Below, in pieces: positions 54,811 to 64,000 of a DNA stretch of 64,000 nucleotides. The notes beneath the pieces are model-generated. The model made no database searches. It was not told the DNA's origin and saw only the letters and a list, made by a program, of their open reading frames with translations. The position numbers and the translations under genes are program-made. Numbering within the stretch: position 1 is the stretch's first letter; each line of letters opens with the position of its first letter. Origin of the DNA: Oleiphilus messinensis (lineage in GTDB: Bacteria; Pseudomonadota; Gammaproteobacteria; Pseudomonadales; Oleiphilaceae); contig NZ_CP021425.1 of assembly GCF_002162375.1 (NCBI RefSeq), positions 1,361,501-1,425,500 of the forward strand. Reading direction: 5' to 3'.

Positions 54811-54969
54811 GCACTAGTAAGTCTGTACAGCGATAAACAGCGTTACAAAATTAAAAATTTAGCGATCTGGAGTGTGACGTAATTTACTTGCTGTACAGGC
54901 TATGAGGAGTAGACTAGAGAGATAAGAATGTCGCCCCATGACTTCGCAACGTGATTCAGGAGATCTGTA

Positions 54970-56382
54970 ATGGCTGTGGCTCAAAGACTGAAACGTTACC
55001 TGGAAAACCTACAGGTGCAGTATGATATTGTTCATCATGAACGGGCTTATACCGCAGAGCACGCTGCCACGAGTGCTCATGTTGCTGCAGATCAAATGGT
55101 TGTTGCCACGCCTCTGATTGATCGAAACGGGGTACTGTTTGCGTTGCATTCACTGGCGAACGAAGTGGATATGGAAAAAATGGCTCAGTCCACAGGGCGA
55201 CGATTGCAACTGTTGGCCGTGGAGCAAATCGAGCGCTTTTTTCGCGACTGTGAAGTCTCTGCAATTCCGGCAATTGGAGCGGCTTATGGCTTGAAAATGG
55301 TGGTTGATCCCTCGCTCTTCCAGCAGCCCCAGCTGTTTGTTCGCTGTGGTTCCACGGAGGCGTTGATCAAACTGGAAAATGCGGAATTTCGAATGGCCCT
55401 GGTACAGGCTACTGAAGCGGATTTTGTGAAATGGTCTGCGACCCGAGTACCGGCGGCCGTGACATCGTTGAAGCATGGCCACCACCAGGATGTGACCTGG
55501 GAAGACATTGCAGATCGCTTGCAGCAGCTTTATACATTACCTCCGATGCCGACGATCGCGGTGCGTATCCTTCATCTGGTTTCTGATCCCGAAAGTGAAA
55601 TTTCCGACCTGGCCCGTGTTATCGAGCAGGATCCCAGTCTTGCCGCGCAAATTTTGCGTTACGCGCGCTCGGCGTTGTTCAATTTCCCGGGTGAAATCAA
55701 TTCCGTACAGGATGCGGTTAATATTGTGCTGGGATTTGAGCGGGTGGCCAATATCGCAATGGGGATTGCGTCTGCAAAAGCATTCAATATCCCGCAAAAT
55801 GGGCCGCTGGGTATGGATCGGTTCTGGCAGCATTCACTCATGTGTTCATTCCTTTGCCAACAGTTTGCACTGCAAGTTTCCAGAGAAGCCAATGTCGATC
55901 CGGGACTGGCCTATCTTTGTGGTTTGTTGCATAACTTCGGCTGGTTGTTGATGGGGCATCTCTTCGCACCGGAGTTCAAATCCCTTAATCAACTCGCTTT
56001 TGAACAGCCCGATACACCCATTCATGTTCTGGAACGTCAGGTGTTTGGTATGGGCTGGGCACAGGATGTGATGGCTATTGGCCATGGTACTCTGGGTGGC
56101 ATGTTGTTGAAAATGTGGAATTTGCCTGATGCGGTAGTCAAATGTGCCGCGATGCACCAGGCGACGTCTTATCAAGGTGACCAGGATCAGTATGTCCATC
56201 TGGTGCGCCTGTGTAATACAATTTTGCACAATAACGGCATCGGGGAGTTAGATGCCCCTTGCCATCTGGAAAGTGTTTTTCTGCGCTTTGGTTTGTCGGT
56301 TGACCGAGGTTTGGAAATTGCCAAGGAAGCGCTGAAGTCCACCGAGGAGCTGGGCCAGTTTGCTCGCAGTATTGCGGCCTGA
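54970..56382 (+). CDS. YbaK-like domain fused to HDOD domain
   Basis: A 470-residue cytoplasmic protein with two parts. Residues about 1-150 resemble the YbaK/ProRS editing domain that removes wrong amino acids from tRNA (HHERAYTAEHAATSAHVAAD, CEVSAIPAIGAAYGLKMVVD). Residues about 185-395 are HDOD (LPPMPTIAVRILHLVSDPES, IEQDPSLAAQILRYARSALF, LCGLLHNFGWLLMGHLF). Where editing enzymes carry a catalytic lysine (an AK pair after the helix) this protein reads QMVVATPL, so catalysis may be lost and the domain may sense or bind. AGGAG precedes the ATG. Function unknown. Confidence 0.85.
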   Translation: MAVAQRLKRYLENLQVQYDIVHHERAYTAEHAATSAHVAADQMVVATPLIDRNGVLFALHSLANEVDMEKMAQSTGRRLQLLAVEQIERFFRDCEVSAIPAIGAAYGLKMVVDPSLFQQPQLFVRCGSTEALIKLENAEFRMALVQATEADFVKWSATRVPAAVTSLKHGHHQDVTWEDIADRLQQLYTLPPMPTIAVRILHLVSDPESEISDLARVIEQDPSLAAQILRYARSALFNFPGEINSVQDAVNIVLGFERVANIAMGIASAKAFNIPQNGPLGMDRFWQHSLMCSFLCQQFALQVSREANVDPGLAYLCGLLHNFGWLLMGHLFAPEFKSLNQLAFEQPDTPIHVLERQVFGMGWAQDVMAIGHGTLGGMLLKMWNLPDAVVKCAAMHQATSYQGDQDQYVHLVRLCNTILHNNGIGELDAPCHLESVFLRFGLSVDRGLEIAKEALKSTEELGQFARSIAA

Positions 56383-56395
56383 ATGTGATGCTTCT

Positions 56396-56415
56396 CCCCC
56401 TCCAGTCGGAGGGGG
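56396..56415. terminator. Bidirectional hairpin between convergent genes
   Basis: CCCCCTCC (56396-56403) pairs perfectly with GGAGGGGG (56408-56415) around a four-base loop. It lies between the YbaK-HDOD gene and the leftward gene ending at 56483. Confidence 0.55.
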
Positions 56416-56482
56416 ATTCCGGCTTCTATGATCGAGCTTGTACTATGGTTCAACCCAGGTGTGCTTGAACCCAATTGGTGCT

Positions 56483-57508
56483 TTACCCCAATACCCCGAC
56501 CACAGTATCAGACAGATAAAACTTTTCCAGACGATTGCGGATACGGGCTTCGATGAAACCTTTCTCCGTGAGAATTTTTTGTATTCCCGGTGCCACAGCT
56601 TTAACCTCGGTAACAACCATCTGGGAGTTCACCCCCATGTCTTCGACCAATACCGACAGCGGTTCATCACCGTATTTTTCAAAAAGATAATCCACAACGA
56701 CTTTGCAGCAGCGATAAATATAGTCTGTCTTTCGCAGCCCCAGCCAGTACTCGTAGCCCATGACCACAAATTCAATTAGATCCAGTGAACCCAGGAATTT
56801 CTGATAGTCCCGGACAGGTTTGTCTTCCAGTTCGGACCAGGTGTCCATGGCGATTTCCCGTAATTGCTCTGGCGTCAGCTCTTCGAGCAGGAAACGTTCG
56901 CTTTGGCGAATGATGTACTGAATGTTTTTGGCGATGTATTTCTTCAGGTTTTCCTCAACCTTGCCTTCCAGTTTGGGAGCGGCTTTGTTCACCATTTTTT
57001 TTCCGAGTTTCATCATAGGCGAGACCCCTGGCACCTTTTTGGTGATGATGTTGTCCTCGTAAATGTAATTTGTAATACCGTTGTACAGAATATTGGAAAC
57101 CAGCTCAGAGTAAATCGGATTGGCGAGCGCGCGCTTGATAATAGACTCCCGGAGATCCTGCAACTCCAGCGCTTTTTTAACAAATTCTTCAGCTTGACGG
57201 CTACACATCAGTTCCTTGAGCAGTGTATCGTCTTCACTATCTGACTGGTAAATTCGGTTAGCCGCTTCGCCAATCAGTTCCGAGATGCCACCGTGGATTT
57301 CCAGATCAATCACATTCCGCTGAATAATGCCCATGATATTCTCAGATGAAATGACTTCAGAGAGTGTAACTTCAGGCAGCAGTTGAAATATGGCGTTAAT
57401 CTCCGCTTCCATATCCTGCACAAACTGTTCACTGCTGAGCGCTTGAACTTCGTGTTTTACATGCATATCCAGCAATTTCTGGGCGCTAATCGGAGATGGA
57501 GTGGTCAT
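56483..57508 (-). CDS. Uncharacterised helical protein with DesT-type operator
   Basis: I do not recognise the family. The 341-residue protein has no signal peptide or clear membrane segment and is predicted mostly helical and acidic, with a basic amphipathic middle part (about residues 165-205, KLGKKMVNKAAPKLEGKVEE). GAGGAAG lies before the ATG at 57508. Its predicted promoter carries a 16-bp palindrome (57537-57552) nearly identical to the one at the desaturase operon, so regulation by the same TetR-type fatty-acid regulator is likely and a role in lipid or membrane homeostasis is inferred. It is divergent from the phosphatase gene. Confidence 0.8.
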   Translation of the reverse strand: MTTPSPISAQKLLDMHVKHEVQALSSEQFVQDMEAEINAIFQLLPEVTLSEVISSENIMGIIQRNVIDLEIHGGISELIGEAANRIYQSDSEDDTLLKELMCSRQAEEFVKKALELQDLRESIIKRALANPIYSELVSNILYNGITNYIYEDNIITKKVPGVSPMMKLGKKMVNKAAPKLEGKVEENLKKYIAKNIQYIIRQSERFLLEELTPEQLREIAMDTWSELEDKPVRDYQKFLGSLDLIEFVVMGYEYWLGLRKTDYIYRCCKVVVDYLFEKYGDEPLSVLVEDMGVNSQMVVTEVKAVAPGIQKILTEKGFIEARIRNRLEKFYLSDTVVGVLG

Positions 57509-57535
57509 GGGTCTTCCTCGTTGAATTTTTTGTTA

Positions 57536-57564
57536 AGTGTACAGTCGTACACATAGTAGCGCAA
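57536..57564 (-). promoter_or_regulatory. Predicted promoter of the helical protein gene
   Basis: Reading leftward: TTGCGC (57559-57564), 17 bases, TACACT (57536-57541). Four of six bases match at each box, and the operator-like palindrome covers the -10 and part of the spacer. Confidence 0.45.
57537..57552. promoter_or_regulatory. Palindromic operator, DesT-like
   Basis: GTGTACAGTCGTACAC: arms GTGTACA and CGTACAC around GT, one mismatch from a perfect palindrome and matching the desaturase-operon site (63395) at 13 of 16 bases. A TGTTCAC half-site lies nearby (57565-57571). Confidence 0.65.
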
Positions 57565-57701
57565 TGTTCACAAGCAGATGATATGTGAGCCAGGTCTCGA
57601 TTTTAGATCCGTCCAGTGCCAGTTTGGGTACGTAACACATTTGACATGCATAAAAATTAGGATGGCCGCCAGAGGCAGTTTATCAATGGAGAGGTAGCGC
57701 T

Positions 57702-59039
57702 ATGCAAATTAGATCGAGTTTAATGAGAAGTCATCGGGCGTGGTTATTCGGTGCAGTGGTTATTTTGGCAGGTTGTGATTTTGAGGTCGAGGTTTCAGGA
57801 AGTGGTCGGGTTGTGTCCGATCCTGCAGGTATCGACTGTCGGGCAGAGAGCGGTTCGTGCATCGTTGAGGATTATGAAAAACTGGGTGATGGTAATGACA
57901 AGGTAGTGACCAGGTTGACTGCGATTGCTGACGAGGGGGCTGTTCTGTCACATTGGGAAGGGGATTGTGCGAAAACAAAGCACAATAACTGCTATGTACC
58001 GATGTCTGGAGATCTTTTTGTTAAAGCGGTGTTCAAACCGATGCACTATGCAAATGACCCGGTTCCCCAGACACCGGTACGTTTTGTTGCTCTGGGTGAT
58101 ACCGGTGAAGGTAATCTGGCCCAATACCTGGTGGCCGATGCGATATGGGATGTGTGCGAGGCAAAAGGCGGGTGTGACTTTGCGATTGGTTTAGGTGATA
58201 ACATTTACGATGAGAATCCATTACATACATCTGACACGGCATTTGATCAGAAGTTTGAGCTGCCGTACCAAAAGCTGGAATTCCCGTTTTATATGTCATT
58301 GGGTAATCATGACAACGATTTGATTATCGATGGTACCGGCGGTTCCAATATCGCCGGGGATGTGCAGGTTGAATACACTTATCGTGAAAATAAATTGAGT
58401 GATAAGTGGCAATTACCGGATCGTTATTATCATTTTGGTGCACCTTTGGGGAGTACCGCCGGTGAGCGTGTAATCGACTTTTTTGTGTTGGACTCCAATC
58501 CGTTAAACAGTGCGCCGGATATTAACCCGGAGTATGAAATTAACGCTTATAAAGCAGCACAAGGGGCGTGGCTCGATGGGGCACTGGCGGTATCGAGCGC
58601 GCCCTGGAAAATGGCCTATACCCACCATCCCTATGTGTCGAACGGGAGTCACGGAAATGCGGGACGCTATGATCGTCTGCTTCCTTTGGAGCCGGTTTCA
58701 GCCAGAATTTCGGGTGAGATCTATCGACAGTGGTTTGAACAGCATGTGTGTGGCAAGATTGATCTCTTCATTGCGGGCCATGATCATGATCTTCAAATGT
58801 TAAAGTCGGTGCCGGAGTGCGGTAAAACCTTTTTCATCATTTCAGGGGCAGGCGCAAAATCCCGATCCATCGATGACGCCATGCGCAATGTGAGCTATTG
58901 GCAAGAAGGGGATACAACTGGTTTTTTCCTGCTCGAGACTAAAGGGAATACGTTGTTTGTTACGGCCTATACCGTTGATGGCGACACCGGAGATTATCGG
59001 GTTGCGTACGAGAACGTGATGCAGCGTCGTGTTGATTGA
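57702..59039 (+). CDS. Metallophosphatase lipoprotein with N-terminal repeat domain
   Basis: The 445-residue precursor has a lipoprotein signal (ILAGC, Cys25). A small disulfide-type domain follows (about 30-110) of the divergent InlB/bacterial-repeat kind (GSGRVVSDPAGIDC, AVLSHWEGDCAKT). The catalytic domain is a purple-acid-phosphatase-like metallophosphoesterase (about 125-440). Metal-site motifs are visible in order: VALGDTGEGN, GLGDNIYDEN, SLGNHDND, THHPYVSNGSHG and AGHDHDLQML. It should act at the outer membrane or in the periplasm on phosphate esters; substrate unknown. Similar to tartrate-resistant acid phosphatases. Confidence 0.87.
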   Translation: MQIRSSLMRSHRAWLFGAVVILAGCDFEVEVSGSGRVVSDPAGIDCRAESGSCIVEDYEKLGDGNDKVVTRLTAIADEGAVLSHWEGDCAKTKHNNCYVPMSGDLFVKAVFKPMHYANDPVPQTPVRFVALGDTGEGNLAQYLVADAIWDVCEAKGGCDFAIGLGDNIYDENPLHTSDTAFDQKFELPYQKLEFPFYMSLGNHDNDLIIDGTGGSNIAGDVQVEYTYRENKLSDKWQLPDRYYHFGAPLGSTAGERVIDFFVLDSNPLNSAPDINPEYEINAYKAAQGAWLDGALAVSSAPWKMAYTHHPYVSNGSHGNAGRYDRLLPLEPVSARISGEIYRQWFEQHVCGKIDLFIAGHDHDLQMLKSVPECGKTFFIISGAGAKSRSIDDAMRNVSYWQEGDTTGFFLLETKGNTLFVTAYTVDGDTGDYRVAYENVMQRRVD

Positions 59040-59057
59040 ACCAACTTTAGGTTCAAG

Positions 59058-59083
59058 CCCTTTGCGACACTTGTCGTAAAGGG
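59058..59083 (+). terminator. Hairpin after the phosphatase gene
   Basis: CCCTTTGCGACA pairs with TGTCGTAAAGGG, a nearly perfect 12-pair stem (one G-T). No T-run follows, so it may be a 3'-end stabiliser or a weak terminator. Confidence 0.5.
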
Positions 59084-59204
59084 GGCAAGTTGATCCAGTT
59101 TTGCAATCAGTTGATTTTCCACTATAACTATTCTGAATTGAAAAGGACGAGTACTTCTGGTCAGGCTGTGTGACTGGAGGTGCCACCTTCGCGGGATATG
59201 CGTA

Positions 59205-60263
59205 ATGAGTAGTGGCGTTACTGCGCCTGGAGGATTGATGCAGGAAGTTCTTTTAAATTCCTTAGTGAATATTACCAAGACCAGGGATATCGACTCGCTG
59301 GAATACAGTTTGGTATCAACCATCCATGAGTTTATTGGTTGTCAGCAGATTGCCATTTATAAAAAAATGGATACCCCCGATGCGGTCAGTATTGAGCGCA
59401 GTCTGGCCTTGTATGTTGACGATGATGGCCAGTTCCAGTGGTCGGAGCGGTGTGAAGAGGAAGAGCCCAGTCCCGAATTGATTTCCTGTTTGCACTCGGC
59501 CTGTACCATCAGTGTGCAATCCAATACCGGCGTGGAAAACCGCTGGATTCCTGTGGTGTTGCAAGAAAAACCCGTCGGAGCCATTGCGCTGACATCTGTC
59601 GGTCTGGACAGCCAGAGTCAGGTGCTGTTGAATGCGTTTTGTCGTATTTTTGAAAATTATCTCGCAGTATTAAACGAAAATGAACGAGATAAGTTGACTG
59701 GTCTCTTAAATCGCCAGACGTTTGATAAGAAAGTGGCTGACCTGATGCAGAAGCAGGTCCGTAATCAGTATCGCGGACAGGCCCATGAGGGGAATCGCAT
59801 GATTCATCCGGGATCGACATCCTGGCTGGCGATCATCGATGTAGATTATTTCAAACAGGTTAATGACCGCTATGGCCACGTATGTGGAGATGAAGTTCTT
59901 CTGTTACTGGCACAGAAAATGAACGAATTCTTTCGTGCTTCGGATTTACTGTTCCGCTTTGGTGGCGAGGAATTTGTAATTGTATTCGAGCCGACTCGTT
60001 CAGATATGTTACGCAAGCGTTTGGATGCTTTTATGGACATGATCCGCTCTACACGCTTCCCGTTTGTAGCCAACATTACGGTGAGCATTGGTGTTGCCCG
60101 GATGAGTCCGTATGATTTTCCCATTTCTGTACTTGAAAACGCGGATCGAGCACTGTACCACGCCAAAGACTCAGGTCGGGATCAGTTGCATTTCTTTCAT
60201 GAAATCGTGGAAATTCTGGACCGGGAAAATGGCGACCTCGACGGCGATGTTGATCTGTTTTAA
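59205..60263 (+). CDS. Diguanylate cyclase (GAF-like plus GGDEF)
   Basis: A 352-residue cytoplasmic protein that should make c-di-GMP. Residues about 15-155 form a GAF-like sensor domain. The GGDEF domain (about 163-335) begins NERDKLTGLLNRQTFDKKV and has the intact catalytic FRFGGEEFVIVF with an RASD inhibition site five residues before it. The second start, ATG 59238 with GGAGGA close upstream, is also possible. No EAL domain. Signal sensed is unknown. Confidence 0.93.
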   Translation: MSSGVTAPGGLMQEVLLNSLVNITKTRDIDSLEYSLVSTIHEFIGCQQIAIYKKMDTPDAVSIERSLALYVDDDGQFQWSERCEEEEPSPELISCLHSACTISVQSNTGVENRWIPVVLQEKPVGAIALTSVGLDSQSQVLLNAFCRIFENYLAVLNENERDKLTGLLNRQTFDKKVADLMQKQVRNQYRGQAHEGNRMIHPGSTSWLAIIDVDYFKQVNDRYGHVCGDEVLLLLAQKMNEFFRASDLLFRFGGEEFVIVFEPTRSDMLRKRLDAFMDMIRSTRFPFVANITVSIGVARMSPYDFPISVLENADRALYHAKDSGRDQLHFFHEIVEILDRENGDLDGDVDLF

Positions 60264-60313: not shown

Positions 60314-60721
60314 TTATTTTGCTGTATCAGATTCTCTGGAGTCTTCACTGACAACGTTGACCAGTGGCTTATCGCTACCTGGGTGGCCCGTGGGCGTCTC
60401 ATCAGGCAATGATTTAAGTTGCGCATTTTCTTTGTGGATCTTATTTGCCTGCTGGCCATCTTCCAATGCTTCAAATAAATCGCTGGCCAAGTCACCGACA
60501 CGATTGTTAACCGTACGAATTGTGTCGTAAATCGAGTGTATCAGCGCTTCATGACGCTCCTTGGCCTGAAGCTTTTCAAGCTTCTCGCCGCCCGCTTTTT
60601 CCAGTTGATCCAGGGGAACGTTGGCAATGGAAGTGTGAATTTCCTCAATGCGAGTCACCGCACTATCGACTGCGGTTTGCAATGTATCTTTGATAACTTC
60701 CAGTTGGTTGATCCAACTCAT
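60314..60721 (-). CDS. Small helical protein of unknown function
   Basis: The 135-residue protein (MSWINQLEVIKDTLQTAVDS) is made of amphipathic helices with heptad-like spacing (EKLEKLQAKERHEALIHSIY, RVGDLASDLFEALEDGQQ) and a polar disordered tail. It resembles coiled-coil or phasin-like proteins only in general character. AGGAG lies 7 bases before ATG 60721, which is better placed than the ATG at 60727. No function is assigned. Confidence 0.65.
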   Translation of the reverse strand: MSWINQLEVIKDTLQTAVDSAVTRIEEIHTSIANVPLDQLEKAGGEKLEKLQAKERHEALIHSIYDTIRTVNNRVGDLASDLFEALEDGQQANKIHKENAQLKSLPDETPTGHPGSDKPLVNVVSEDSRESDTAK

Positions 60722-60895
60722 ATTCATGCTCCTATGGGCGTATTCGGACGATCTGCGGGATGAAGAGGGTCACGACGCGATAACCGTTTTTGTCTTGTAA
60801 TCAGGGTTTTCCGGTACGATACCATGTCCGAACGTAATGTTAAATTAGTGTTTGGTGAAAATATGAACAGTTTCGATGTTTTCAGGTGTAAAGAG

Positions 60896-60964: not shown

Positions 60965-62125
60965 TTAGGCCGCTACCAGTTGACCCTCGACGTTGCTATC
61001 TTTTGGCTTGCGGCTGAAACGAATGATGCGTTTCAGTACAGTTTTGTACTGGCTCCAGAACGTGCCGGTGTTGTACGGCAGACCATGCTTCTCACAGATT
61101 TCCTGAACACGGGGTGACATCTCTGCGTAGCGGTGTGCCGGGATGTCCGGGAACAAATGGTGTTCAATCTGATAGCTTAAATGACCGCTTAAGATGTGTA
61201 GCCACTTACCGCCGGTAAAGTTGCCGGAACCCAATAGTTGACGGTAGTACCAGTGACCTCGAGTTTCATTTTCACAAACTTCAACCGGGAAGGTTTTCGA
61301 GCCTTCAGTAAAGTGGCCGCAGAAAATCACGGTAGATGCCCACAGGTTACGGATCAGGTTAGCCAGCATGTTCCCCAGTAGCACTTTCAGGAAAAACGGG
61401 CCTGCCAGCAGCGGGAAGAAAATGTAATCCTTGAAGATCTGTCTGAAGCCTTTTTTGGCAAACGTTTTATAAAATGGAATGCGTGATTTCCAGGTCACTT
61501 CCTTGCGTACTACTTTTTCGAACTCCATTTCGTGTAATGCAACACCCCATTGGAAGAAAACGCTCAATAGCACGTAGTAGGCGAACTGAAAGCGTCTCAG
61601 CGGGTGCCAGGATTCGTCTTCAGACATGCGCAGAATACCATAGCCGTAATCCCGATCCTTACCCAGAATATTGGTGTAAGTGTGGTGCTCATAGTTGTGA
61701 GTCTTGCGCCAGGAATCCGCATCACATGCTGTATCCCACTCGTAGCTGGTCGAGTGTAGTTTCGGATCGTTCATCCAGTCGTATTGACCGTGCATGACAT
61801 TGTGGCCGATTTCCATATTTTCGATGATTTTGGCAACCCCCAGCGACAACACGCCAAGCGCGAAAGGAATCGGTGTGAAGCTGAAATGAATCAAACCCCG
61901 GCCGCTGATTTCGAAAATTCGTTGTGTGCGCACGATTTTGCGGATGTATTTTGCATCACGCTCGCCAATATCAGCGCGCACTTCTTCAAGCAGGGCGTCA
62001 AACTCTTTCTGAAGGCTCTCCAGCATTTCCGGCGTTGGTTCCGGCAAGTCGTTGTTGTCGAAGGTAAGGGGGCTGACCTTTGTTTTCTGTTCAGTTTGAA
62101 TGGTGTCTTGAGCAATCATGTTCAT
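60965..62125 (-). CDS. desB: Acyl-CoA delta-9 desaturase, DesB-type
   Basis: A di-iron membrane desaturase that introduces a double bond into long acyl chains. The 386-residue protein has three histidine boxes: GHNVMHG, HNYEHHTYTN and SYQIEHHLFPDIPAHRY, with hydrophobic helices between them (about 65-85 and 220-250). It resembles Pseudomonas DesB and mycobacterial DesA3. ATG at 62125 (MNMIAQDT) has AAGGA seven bases upstream; ATG at 62140 is an alternative. It follows its reductase partner by about 100 bases on the same strand. Confidence 0.93.
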   Translation of the reverse strand: MNMIAQDTIQTEQKTKVSPLTFDNNDLPEPTPEMLESLQKEFDALLEEVRADIGERDAKYIRKIVRTQRIFEISGRGLIHFSFTPIPFALGVLSLGVAKIIENMEIGHNVMHGQYDWMNDPKLHSTSYEWDTACDADSWRKTHNYEHHTYTNILGKDRDYGYGILRMSEDESWHPLRRFQFAYYVLLSVFFQWGVALHEMEFEKVVRKEVTWKSRIPFYKTFAKKGFRQIFKDYIFFPLLAGPFFLKVLLGNMLANLIRNLWASTVIFCGHFTEGSKTFPVEVCENETRGHWYYRQLLGSGNFTGGKWLHILSGHLSYQIEHHLFPDIPAHRYAEMSPRVQEICEKHGLPYNTGTFWSQYKTVLKRIIRFSRKPKDSNVEGQLVAA

Positions 62126-62231
62126 AATAGCGTCCTTCATATATTTTATGTGGCAATTGCAGATAGAGTAGGAAAATGAAAATGTCTCGATATCTGCTTT
62201 GTTCTGGTGTTAACCCAGTCAAAATTTTGCT

Positions 62232-63371
62232 TTACAGTGCGAGTGTCACATCGGTGACCGGTACGGCGATACAGAGTTGGATTTCTTCCTTTCCACCGTC
62301 GGAAATTTCGCCGGTCAGCATGTTTCTCACCCGGCCACTTTGCTTGGTGCACTTACAGGTGTGGCAAATCCCGATTCGACAGCCTGACTTCGGACTCAAG
62401 CCAGCAGCTTCGGCCTGATCCAGTAATGGCATCTGATTGGTTCCAGTCACTTCCCGGTGGCTTTTACTGAATGTCAGTTGATGTTCCATTTCTGCTTCGC
62501 CATCTACGGGAAGCGGGCTTACAACGAACACTTCTTCATGGATCGGTAGATTGCTTTTGTGGCTTTGAATCAATTCTTTCGCGATATCCCGAAAACCCTG
62601 TGGTCCACAAACATAGGCGTGTTCAAAGTCTTCATTGATGTATGGACGAACATGATCGGCGCAAATCAAACCGGCCTCTTCAGTGGCGAAGCATTTGACG
62701 GTTAACCAGTCATGTTTCTGGTCCATGGTTTTCAGCTCTTGGCCGAAGATAAATTCATCCGCCTTGTTGGCATAGTAGATCAACGTCACCGGACGAGTAT
62801 CTGTCTCTTCACTTTCAATGCCGGCCTCAATCGTTCTGATCTGCGACATGATTGGCGTAATGCCTGAACCCGCTGCGATGTACAGTAAGGCGGTGTCCGT
62901 ATTCGCGGGCAGGGTAAATTCGCCTTGGGCCGGGCTGAGTGAAACGATATCGCCGGAGCGAAGGCTCTCGTGAATCCAGCCTGTTACGCGTCCCTCTGGC
63001 ACGCGTTTGATCGTGATGCTGATGAGGCCTTGATCCAGCCACAGCGAAGGTGCAGAAGAAAGGCTAAACGTTCGCGTCACCGCGCTACCATTGATCGTCA
63101 CGCTCAGTTGCAAATGCTGACCGGCTTCAAATCCCTTCCAGTTGGAAACAGGCTGCAGGACCAGGGTTTTTGTATCGGCGGTCTCGGAAATAACTTCGAG
63201 TACACGTGCTCGAGTTTCAGTCAGTGACCACATCGGATTGATTGATTCTGCCAGAACATCGAAGTATTCAGCAGGGGTATCAGTATTAAACAATGCTTGA
63301 GAAATCCATTTCGTAGTACGGCTTAACAACACAGATCGATTGGATTCCGCTGTATGAGTTTGGTTCGACAT
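62232..63371 (-). CDS. desC: Ferredoxin reductase partner of the desaturase (DesC-type)
   Basis: Electron donor for the desaturase. The 379-residue protein has a FAD-binding domain (TRTFSLSSAP for FAD, about 110-125), an NAD(P)H-binding domain (LLYIAAGSGITPIMSQIRTI, AYVCGPQGFRDIA) and a C-terminal plant-type [2Fe-2S] domain (SPKSGCRIGICHTCKCTKQS). It receives electrons from NADPH and passes them through the cluster. ATG 63371 has CAGGAG 8 bases upstream; a longer frame to 63431 runs through the promoter. First gene of the operon. Confidence 0.93.
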   Translation of the reverse strand: MSNQTHTAESNRSVLLSRTTKWISQALFNTDTPAEYFDVLAESINPMWSLTETRARVLEVISETADTKTLVLQPVSNWKGFEAGQHLQLSVTINGSAVTRTFSLSSAPSLWLDQGLISITIKRVPEGRVTGWIHESLRSGDIVSLSPAQGEFTLPANTDTALLYIAAGSGITPIMSQIRTIEAGIESEETDTRPVTLIYYANKADEFIFGQELKTMDQKHDWLTVKCFATEEAGLICADHVRPYINEDFEHAYVCGPQGFRDIAKELIQSHKSNLPIHEEVFVVSPLPVDGEAEMEHQLTFSKSHREVTGTNQMPLLDQAEAAGLSPKSGCRIGICHTCKCTKQSGRVRNMLTGEISDGGKEEIQLCIAVPVTDVTLAL

Positions 63372-63394: not shown

Positions 63395-63410
63395 GTGTAC
63401 ATTTGTACAC
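63395..63410. promoter_or_regulatory. Palindromic operator in the desC-desB promoter
   Basis: GTGTACATTTGTACAC is a perfect 7+2+7 palindrome, placed over the -10 region of the leftward promoter and so able to block RNA polymerase. Probable binding site of the adjacent TetR-type regulator. Confidence 0.7.
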
Positions 63411-63431
63411 TCTAAGTGTTTCTTGTGTCAA
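63402..63431 (-). promoter_or_regulatory. Promoter of the desC-desB operon
   Basis: Reading leftward: perfect TTGACA (63426-63431), 18 bases, TACAAA (63402-63407). The -10 lies inside the palindrome at 63395-63410. Confidence 0.6.
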
Positions 63432-63504: not shown

Positions 63505-63520
63505 GTGTACACGTGAACAC
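63505..63520. promoter_or_regulatory. Second operator-like palindrome
   Basis: GTGTACACGTGAACAC has arms GTGTACA and TGAACAC with one mismatch, in the middle of the divergent region. Related half-sites GTGTTCA (63571-63577) and TGAACAC (63609-63615) are closer to the regulator gene. Confidence 0.5.
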
Positions 63521-63675
63521 TGGTAGTTGATTTGGTGGGAGTTTTATGTTCCTATCATGCTCATAAACAGGTGTTCATCGGTTCGTAAAAAATAAAAATG
63601 TGAACGAGTGAACACTAATTGTTGATTGATGTGCCCGCCTTTTTATCTCCGGTGGCGCATGCAATGAGGGTAGAA

Positions 63676-64000
63676 TATGAGTACTCGATTAGAGAAAAAG
63701 CTGATGACGCGCCAATCGCTTATGGATGCGGTGCTGGAATTGATTGACGAGGGAATGGGGTTTGCCTCGATCAGTATTCGTGAGGTGGCGAAGCGTTCCG
63801 GTGTTGTTCCGACGGCATTTTACCGCCACTTTACAGACATGGAGGATCTTGCGTTCTGTTTGGTGGATGAATTCAGTCTGGGATTGCGTCGAGTGTTAAG
63901 AGAGACCCGCCAGCAAACCCGCAGTGTTGGTCCCTTGATTCGTCAATCGGTACTCATCTACGTTGAACACGTGCAGCAAAACCGTGGCCTGTTCCGGTTT
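63676..64000 (+). CDS. desT: TetR-family regulator, DesT/FabR-like (truncated by window end)
   Basis: Only the first 108 codons are inside the window. MSTRLEKKLMTRQSLMDAVL is followed by a TetR-type DNA-binding domain (about residues 25-60) with SISIREVAKRSGVVPTAFYR and HFTDMEDLAF. GAGGGT lies 6 bases before the ATG. It is divergent from the desaturase operon, exactly as DesT is in Pseudomonas, which senses the saturated-to-unsaturated acyl-CoA ratio. Ligand domain not visible, so the name is by context and homology. Confidence 0.88.

Follow-up and report, generated by a model that had tools for sequence, protein, structure and literature searches.

A probable DesT operator upstream of X341, a gene of no named family in Oleiphilus messinensis

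The closest described system is that of DesT from Pseudomonas aeruginosa. DesT is described as binding the desCB and fabAB promoters and as repressing desCB about ninefold, and its binding is lowered by saturated and raised by unsaturated acyl-CoA (PMC10634369). The reported targets in P. aeruginosa are desCB and fabAB (PMC10634369, PMC3462791). FabR of Escherichia coli and Shewanella oneidensis is a related regulator with a related operator, AGCGTACACGTGTTCGCT, and in S. oneidensis fabR is reported to be divergent from desA (PMC4273635). A lesser FabR target in E. coli, TrhA (yqfA), offers a precedent for a gene of unclear function that joins an unsaturated-fatty-acid regulon through a FabR box (PMC9017321).

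The published genome of Oleiphilus messinensis is a circular chromosome of 6.38 Mb with a GC content of 47.8% (PMC5847120). The assembly used here is a single contig of 6,379,281 bases, from which a stretch of 64,000 nucleotides with a GC content of 48.4%, called the window below, was analysed. Positions up to 64000 are those of the window and higher ones those of the contig. As in P. aeruginosa, a TetR-family regulator gene is divergent from desC-desB and palindromic operators precede desC. The leftward genes are desC (62232-63371, minus strand), encoding a ferredoxin-reductase-type electron donor, desB (60965-62140, minus strand), encoding a membrane fatty acid desaturase (FA_desaturase, E 1.1e-31), and behind these a small helical protein (60314-60727, minus strand) with the working label phasinL. 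The listed desC frame starts at 63431, but the ATG at 63371 is the likelier start. The regulator gene (63677-64000, plus strand) is cut by the window end and encodes 228 residues in the genome. The best solved match of the full protein is P. aeruginosa DesT (3lsj, E 1.8e-38), followed at E 6e-8 by the next, and it scores below the NCBIfam FabR cut-off (NF008402, 144.2 versus 151 bits). With DesT as closest solved relative and with this gene order it was classified as DesT. FabR operators have GCG..CGC flanks, whereas the DesT-class operators found here have GTG..CAC.

A further palindrome at 57537 precedes X341 (working label; 56483-57508, minus strand), which encodes 341 residues and belongs to no named family. 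The original prediction placed this gene in the desaturase regulon, a proposal that is strengthened by the fit of the site to operators of relatives, by gene linkage in 12 plus 4 of 96 relatives' copies, and by the DesT-type regulator encoded 6 kb away. We estimate a probability of about 0.85 that, as sequence comparison indicates, the palindrome is an operator for the DesT encoded at 63677 and has leftward X341 as its target, co-regulated with desC-desB-phasinL. Counting against this are the failure to find a sigma-70-like promoter, the presence of an operator directly before X341 in only one relative, and a second regulator, encoded at 1567823, that could also bind. The mechanism itself would be ordinary, and X341 a new probable target of the DesT regulon.

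Operator sites in the window and in the genome

The predicted DesT-class operator GTGTACAGTCGTACAC (57537-57552, unstranded like the other palindromes) lies in the 193-bp gap between the start of X341 (57508) and that of a rightward gene for a calcineurin-like phosphoesterase (57702). It precedes the start codon of X341 by 28 nt and the ATG of the divergent phosphoesterase gene by 149 nt. A sister site, GTGTACATTTGTACAC (63395-63410), is located 23 nt 5' of the likely desC start codon. The same 16-bp palindrome had been proposed for both places, about 5.8 kb apart. Both sites are present, 5,858 bp apart, and have the 6-bp arms GTGTAC...GTACAC in common, but the middle four bases differ (AGTC versus ATTT). 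Two more predicted operators that the original prediction did not include, GTGTACACGTGAACAC (63505-63520) and GTGAACGAGTGAACAC (63600-63615), occupy the gap between desC and desT.

The sites were scored with a symmetric weight matrix. Its training set consisted of 37 operators from relatives, the own genome being left out, and covered 17 non-redundant regions between desT and desC, of which 14 have two palindromes at one mismatch or less and three have three. The window sites were known when the consensus for picking training sites was composed, which makes the matrix only partly independent of the window, although the placement of the training sites between desT and desC does not depend on it. 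In the window the four sites score 23.5 (63395), 22.75 (57537), 21.0 (63505) and 19.2 bits (63600), and the next best position reaches 9.8. The training sites span 17.1-25.3 bits, and the X341 site, second in rank, is within this span. A 16-mer identical to it occurs upstream of desC in the relative G021, and its complement upstream of an alpha/beta-hydrolase gene in the relative G031. When the identical 16-mer was dropped from the training set (36 sites left) the score was 22.5 bits, still second in the window. Sites scoring this well are expected 0.0011 times per 64 kb and 0.11 times per genome, and 3.2 Mb of simulated sequence gave none as good. Judged by these scores the palindrome at 57537 is real and not a product of chance.

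The genome scan suggested for the palindrome, which allowed two mismatches, failed to discriminate: it gave 66 matches compared to 58 for a reversed-pattern control, and is therefore too loose. With one mismatch to the same pattern, 15 matches were obtained in the own genome versus 4 for the control, and with one mismatch to the refined pattern GTGWACRNNYGTWCAC there were 12 positions versus 4. An abundance of random hits, which had been named as an outcome that would speak against the regulon, is thus seen at two mismatches and not at one. Zero-mismatch sites occur three times, at X341, desC and 5980175. Of the 12 one-mismatch positions three are inside reading frames (296045, 4035346, 4542745), three are in the desC-desT gap and six are intergenic. 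Besides the X341 site, the intergenic ones are 5980175, which has a weaker palindrome beside it at a distance of 31 bp, 679003 upstream of an alpha/beta-hydrolase-like gene, 1510408 upstream of a DUF6160 gene, and 1893903 and 3978443 upstream of other genes, the latter 287 nt from the nearest frame. Proximity to lipid genes, expected of all sites, can be claimed from gene order for desC and X341 but not for the three positions inside reading frames. The site at 5980175 is lipid-related only if its operon with a small helical domain is counted as such.

Several candidate operators were dropped because of their matrix scores, among them 3404209 at a DUF445 gene (9.3 bits) and 3153340 inside a gene (12.7 bits). 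The GTATAC tandem palindromes at 1905925 and 6042875 were also rejected as DesT sites (12.5 and 9.0) and look like sites of another regulator. They are GTATACANNTGTATAC-type palindromes 24-25 bp apart (1905925/1905949 in locus L031, 6042875/6042900 in L032), the former pair beside a TetR-family gene and the latter before an apparent short-chain dehydrogenase gene, and perhaps belong to another TetR regulon. In the window, two 8-bp palindromes CTGTACAG occur 68 bp apart at 54823-54898, 5' of an HDOD gene; they are not among the top DesT-class scores. The HDOD protein itself (54970-56382) also has an aminoacyl-tRNA editing domain and is encoded convergently with X341.

The claim that the palindrome at 57537 lies over a predicted X341 promoter and covers its -10 region is not confirmed, as the promoter scanner detected no sigma-70-like pair in 56300-57900 (0 found, 2.3 expected). 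For desC, reading of the sequence reveals TTGACA (63431-63426), an 18-nt spacer and TACAAA (63407-63402), and the operator at 63395 would cover a -10 since this second hexamer is inside it. The scanner lists no promoter there, and as it requires a T at position 6 such a TTGACA-18-TACAAA pair is not accepted. Operator spacing is similar at the three zero-mismatch sites of the own genome, with 28 nt to the ATG of X341, 23 nt to the likely ATG of desC and 26 nt to the first gene at 5980175. In 15 of the 17 desC regions of relatives the start codon, chosen by eye and by a ribosome-site-like string, lies 12-41 nt past the nearest operator. The site at 57537 is therefore as close upstream as its counterparts at desC. 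The exceptions are L136 with 8 or 22 nt and L159 with 74 nt, and the nearest operator is weak in L131 (14.4 bits) and L186 (14.8 bits).

Gene order around X341 in relatives

An X341 match was found in 30 of the 58 genomes searched, and 50 genomes of a set of 293 from the order have family members, the own genome being counted in both. A contig search with the single X341 protein gave no match, whereas with the alignment 99 stretches were found to encode a relative, of which 80 were kept. The comparison covers 96 copies with distinct protein cores from 109 loci, the own X341 not among them. In 12 of these copies desC-desB is directly upstream on the same strand, in five of the 12 with a small helical gene in between, and all 12 have DesT-class sites near the desC start. 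Four other copies adjoin desT without desC-desB, two of them through the small helical gene; an operator site is present in two of the four and none was found at one mismatch in the other two. The remaining 80 copies are neither behind desC-desB nor next to desT. Most of these (71 of 96 copies, mainly from Marinobacter) follow DegV, PF10118 or AMP-binding genes, family calls that were checked on one example each, and 9 have other neighbours. Within 3.3 kb upstream no operator was found in 70 of the 71 copies; one has it. In 20 further stretches from the order-wide matches the operon was present only in L249, which has the same X341 as L186, and the other 19 showed no site above 15.5 bits.

Relatives do not generally keep an operator directly before X341. 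In the 300 bp upstream of X341 at 29 loci, three of them with misplaced starts (L036, L038, L064), it was found only in L053 from genome G035, where X341 is divergent from desT. Searching the whole loci of relatives at one mismatch revealed no further operator directly before X341. Operon-type copies have the operator at desC instead of before X341.

The window keeps the order desC, desB, small helical gene and X341 and their common strand, with two opposite-strand genes lying before X341 (57702-60263, plus strand), the phosphoesterase gene (57702-59039, plus strand) and a gene for a GGDEF protein (59205-60263, plus strand). In a tree of 49 rows, which sampled 15 of the 71 Marinobacter-type copies and was midpoint-rooted with distant copies on the other side, the own X341 is outside a clade (98/91) that holds both operon-type and Marinobacter-type copies. 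Because of this position, ancestral linkage in an operon is a parsimony argument, and the simplest reading would be that an insertion split an ancestral operon and that X341 kept its control through an operator of its own. A separate observation on gene order is that X341 relatives adjoin a PF10118 predicted metal-dependent hydrolase in both orientations, divergently in the distant families L261 and L263 and on the same strand in Marinobacter.

Target gene and regulator

In view of the above, three other explanations can be considered for the palindrome. That it is a chance palindrome without function is extremely improbable. Such a reading could point to the roughly 0.1 sites of this quality expected somewhere in a genome of 6.4 Mb and to the failure of the scan to find a promoter nearby. 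However, the site lies 28 nt 5' of precisely that gene which follows the desaturase genes in some relatives, and a frequency of 1.8e-8 per position corresponds to about 4e-6 within a 200-bp upstream region. If the site is functional, its position in a shared intergenic region, 149 nt 5' of the phosphoesterase ATG, would also allow it to serve that divergent gene, either alone or together with X341. We consider this very unlikely, since the 28-nt spacing to X341 resembles that of other DesT targets and the linkage to desCB elsewhere is a property of X341 and not of the phosphoesterase. The phosphoesterase has a match in 6 of 58 genomes, own included; beyond the own genome only the match in G015 is good (41% over residues 122-430), the other four having E values of 2e-7 to 4e-4, and no palindrome above 3.5 bits was found at the G015 locus. 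The gene is labelled in none of the 120 fetched loci, nearly all of which surround X341 or desT of relatives.

A second DesT/FabR-like regulator, encoded at 1567823, is 47% identical to DesT over 208 residues with a nearly identical recognition helix, and could be the protein that mainly binds 57537 instead of the desT product. This is unlikely, as the GTG class of operators is the one found at desT itself, and a second class, GCGWACRNNYGTWCGC, is present that more likely belongs to the paralogue. No GTG-class site above 11 bits occurs in the 7-kb locus of the paralogue. The GCGWACRNNYGTWCGC class has three zero-mismatch sites in the own genome, at 3363660, 4803165 and 6159699 (L269, L270, L271), which adjoin an HlyIII-family gene, a second desC-desB pair and an acyltransferase gene. 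The assignment to the paralogue is suggested by the HlyIII-family gene, as the FabR target TrhA of E. coli is taken by us to be an HlyIII-family member. These sites possibly constitute a FabR-like regulon of the paralogue, a suggestive assignment and no firmer because at one mismatch or less the class is not enriched over the control (9 versus 8).

With DesT as the regulator of both X341 and the desaturase operon, the following cycle can be proposed. When unsaturated acyl-CoA is plentiful DesT would hold the operators at 57537 and desC, and desC-desB-phasinL as well as X341 would be off. When saturated acyl-CoA dominates, for example during growth on saturated alkane chains, DesT would release them and all these proteins would be made together. 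The acyl-CoA response of the own DesT is assumed here by analogy with P. aeruginosa DesT, for which it is known. X341 is separated from the desaturase genes in this organism and would stay co-regulated through its own operator, while it is located behind desC-desB in some related genera. From the operator match and the gene order in relatives, DesT most likely represses X341, and given the operator before the gene and the position of its relatives behind desaturase genes X341 very probably belongs to the machinery of fatty-acid unsaturation. For the X341 family this suggests a first role that can be tested, and growth on saturated versus unsaturated chains as the condition to look at. Regulon membership provides X341 with a context and not with a biochemical function. 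If correct, the DesT regulon would comprise more than desCB and fabAB. In comparison with P. aeruginosa, the predicted regulon includes X341, the small helical protein and the alpha/beta-hydrolase. At the two best fabA-like loci, both under the family cut-off, no good operator was found (best scores 5.1 and 10.3).

The X341 protein and the small helical domain

Sequence and structure comparisons did not assign X341 to a family. None of 29 members scanned exceeded a Pfam gathering score; at E of 0.1 or less each Pfam family was matched by at most 3 of the 29 (best E 0.0019), and the best score of the window protein was 15.0 bits against a cut-off of 24.5. The window protein has no NCBIfam match at E of 0.01 or less, and weak matches of other members are to the mevalonate-3-phosphate 5-kinase model PRK12339 (4 of 29, best E 5.1e-5) and to a valine-tRNA ligase model (1 of 29). 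A relationship to DUF445 found no support in an hhalign comparison with one DUF445 sequence (probability 0.3%), and neither did an internal duplication. With the X341 alignment as query, the best match among the sequences of solved structures had an E of 0.073. AlphaFold models of the window protein and of the L189 relative, which comes from Hahella sp. CCB-MM4 and is encoded behind desC-desB, are all-helical (pLDDT 76.6 and 80.0, pTM 0.49 for both). Foldseek returned no match at E of 0.001 or less for either model, and the best VIA matches had Z scores of 5.8 and 6.4 with rmsd values of 9.9 (81 aligned) and 36.7 (277 aligned). We draw no claim about the fold from these generic long-helix matches. 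Among the titles and abstract openings listed by literature searches, none dealt with X341 or with such a gene in a desaturase operon.

The alignment of 29 rows contains 17 invariant residues, among which there is no Cys, His or Asp, His16 being nearly invariant. This is a mild argument against X341 being a metal enzyme. TrhA is a membrane PAQR homologue, whereas X341 has no named family and no strongly hydrophobic segment (best 19-residue mean 1.05). In both main settings the neighbours of X341 include genes of acyl-chain chemistry, a desaturase or an AMP-binding enzyme. Tentatively, X341 might assist acyl-chain handling or the membrane desaturase as a soluble accessory protein.

The small helical protein behind desB does not match any Pfam phasin model, and the term phasin-like is a label only. 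A profile of this domain was run on 143 proteins, 12 hand-picked and the rest frames of the window and one locus. Matches came from the protein encoded second at 5980175 (E 1.9e-10), the one encoded downstream of the 679003 hydrolase (E 1.8e-9), the hydrolase C-terminus in G019 (E 1.3e-5) and G007 (9.6e-4), and a further own gene, 1528194-1528454 (L248: 1465-1866; E 7.9e-14). The latter has no DesT-class site in its 3.3-kb locus (best 5.8 bits). The domain thus also occurs outside the regulon, and the idea that every gene with it is a DesT target was discarded. The domain is found with DesT-class operators behind desB, beside or fused to the alpha/beta-hydrolase, and in the membrane-anchored operon at 5980175. 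In this last case (5980145-5982200; L022: 6145-8200) two DesT-class palindromes 31 bp apart precede genes for a short membrane-anchored protein, the small-helical-domain protein and an AdeT1/2-type solute-binding protein. At the hydrolase a site above 15 bits was found near the annotated start in 7 of 30 loci (own, L287, L289, L290, L291, L309 and L301, in the last with 17.9 bits and 48 nt inside the frame), and none in the other 23. It is conceivable, if rather doubtful, that the DesT regulon extends beyond desaturation and switches on a so far undescribed acyl-chain-handling module of X341 and the recurring small helical domain. X341 would then work together with the membrane desaturase, or with the acyl-CoA or storage lipid that this enzyme acts on.

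Two further observations concern the distribution of these proteins. A shorter, diverged X341 paralogue at 4757055-4757411 (L153: 2759-3550), in a locus without a DesT-class site (best 7.7 bits), is located between two genes that match the GGDEF protein of the window. The small helical domain is fused C-terminally to the alpha/beta-hydrolase in some relatives (L162, L163, L287 and others), and in the own genome (679003, L023) it is a separate gene downstream of the hydrolase, with a DesT-class site upstream.
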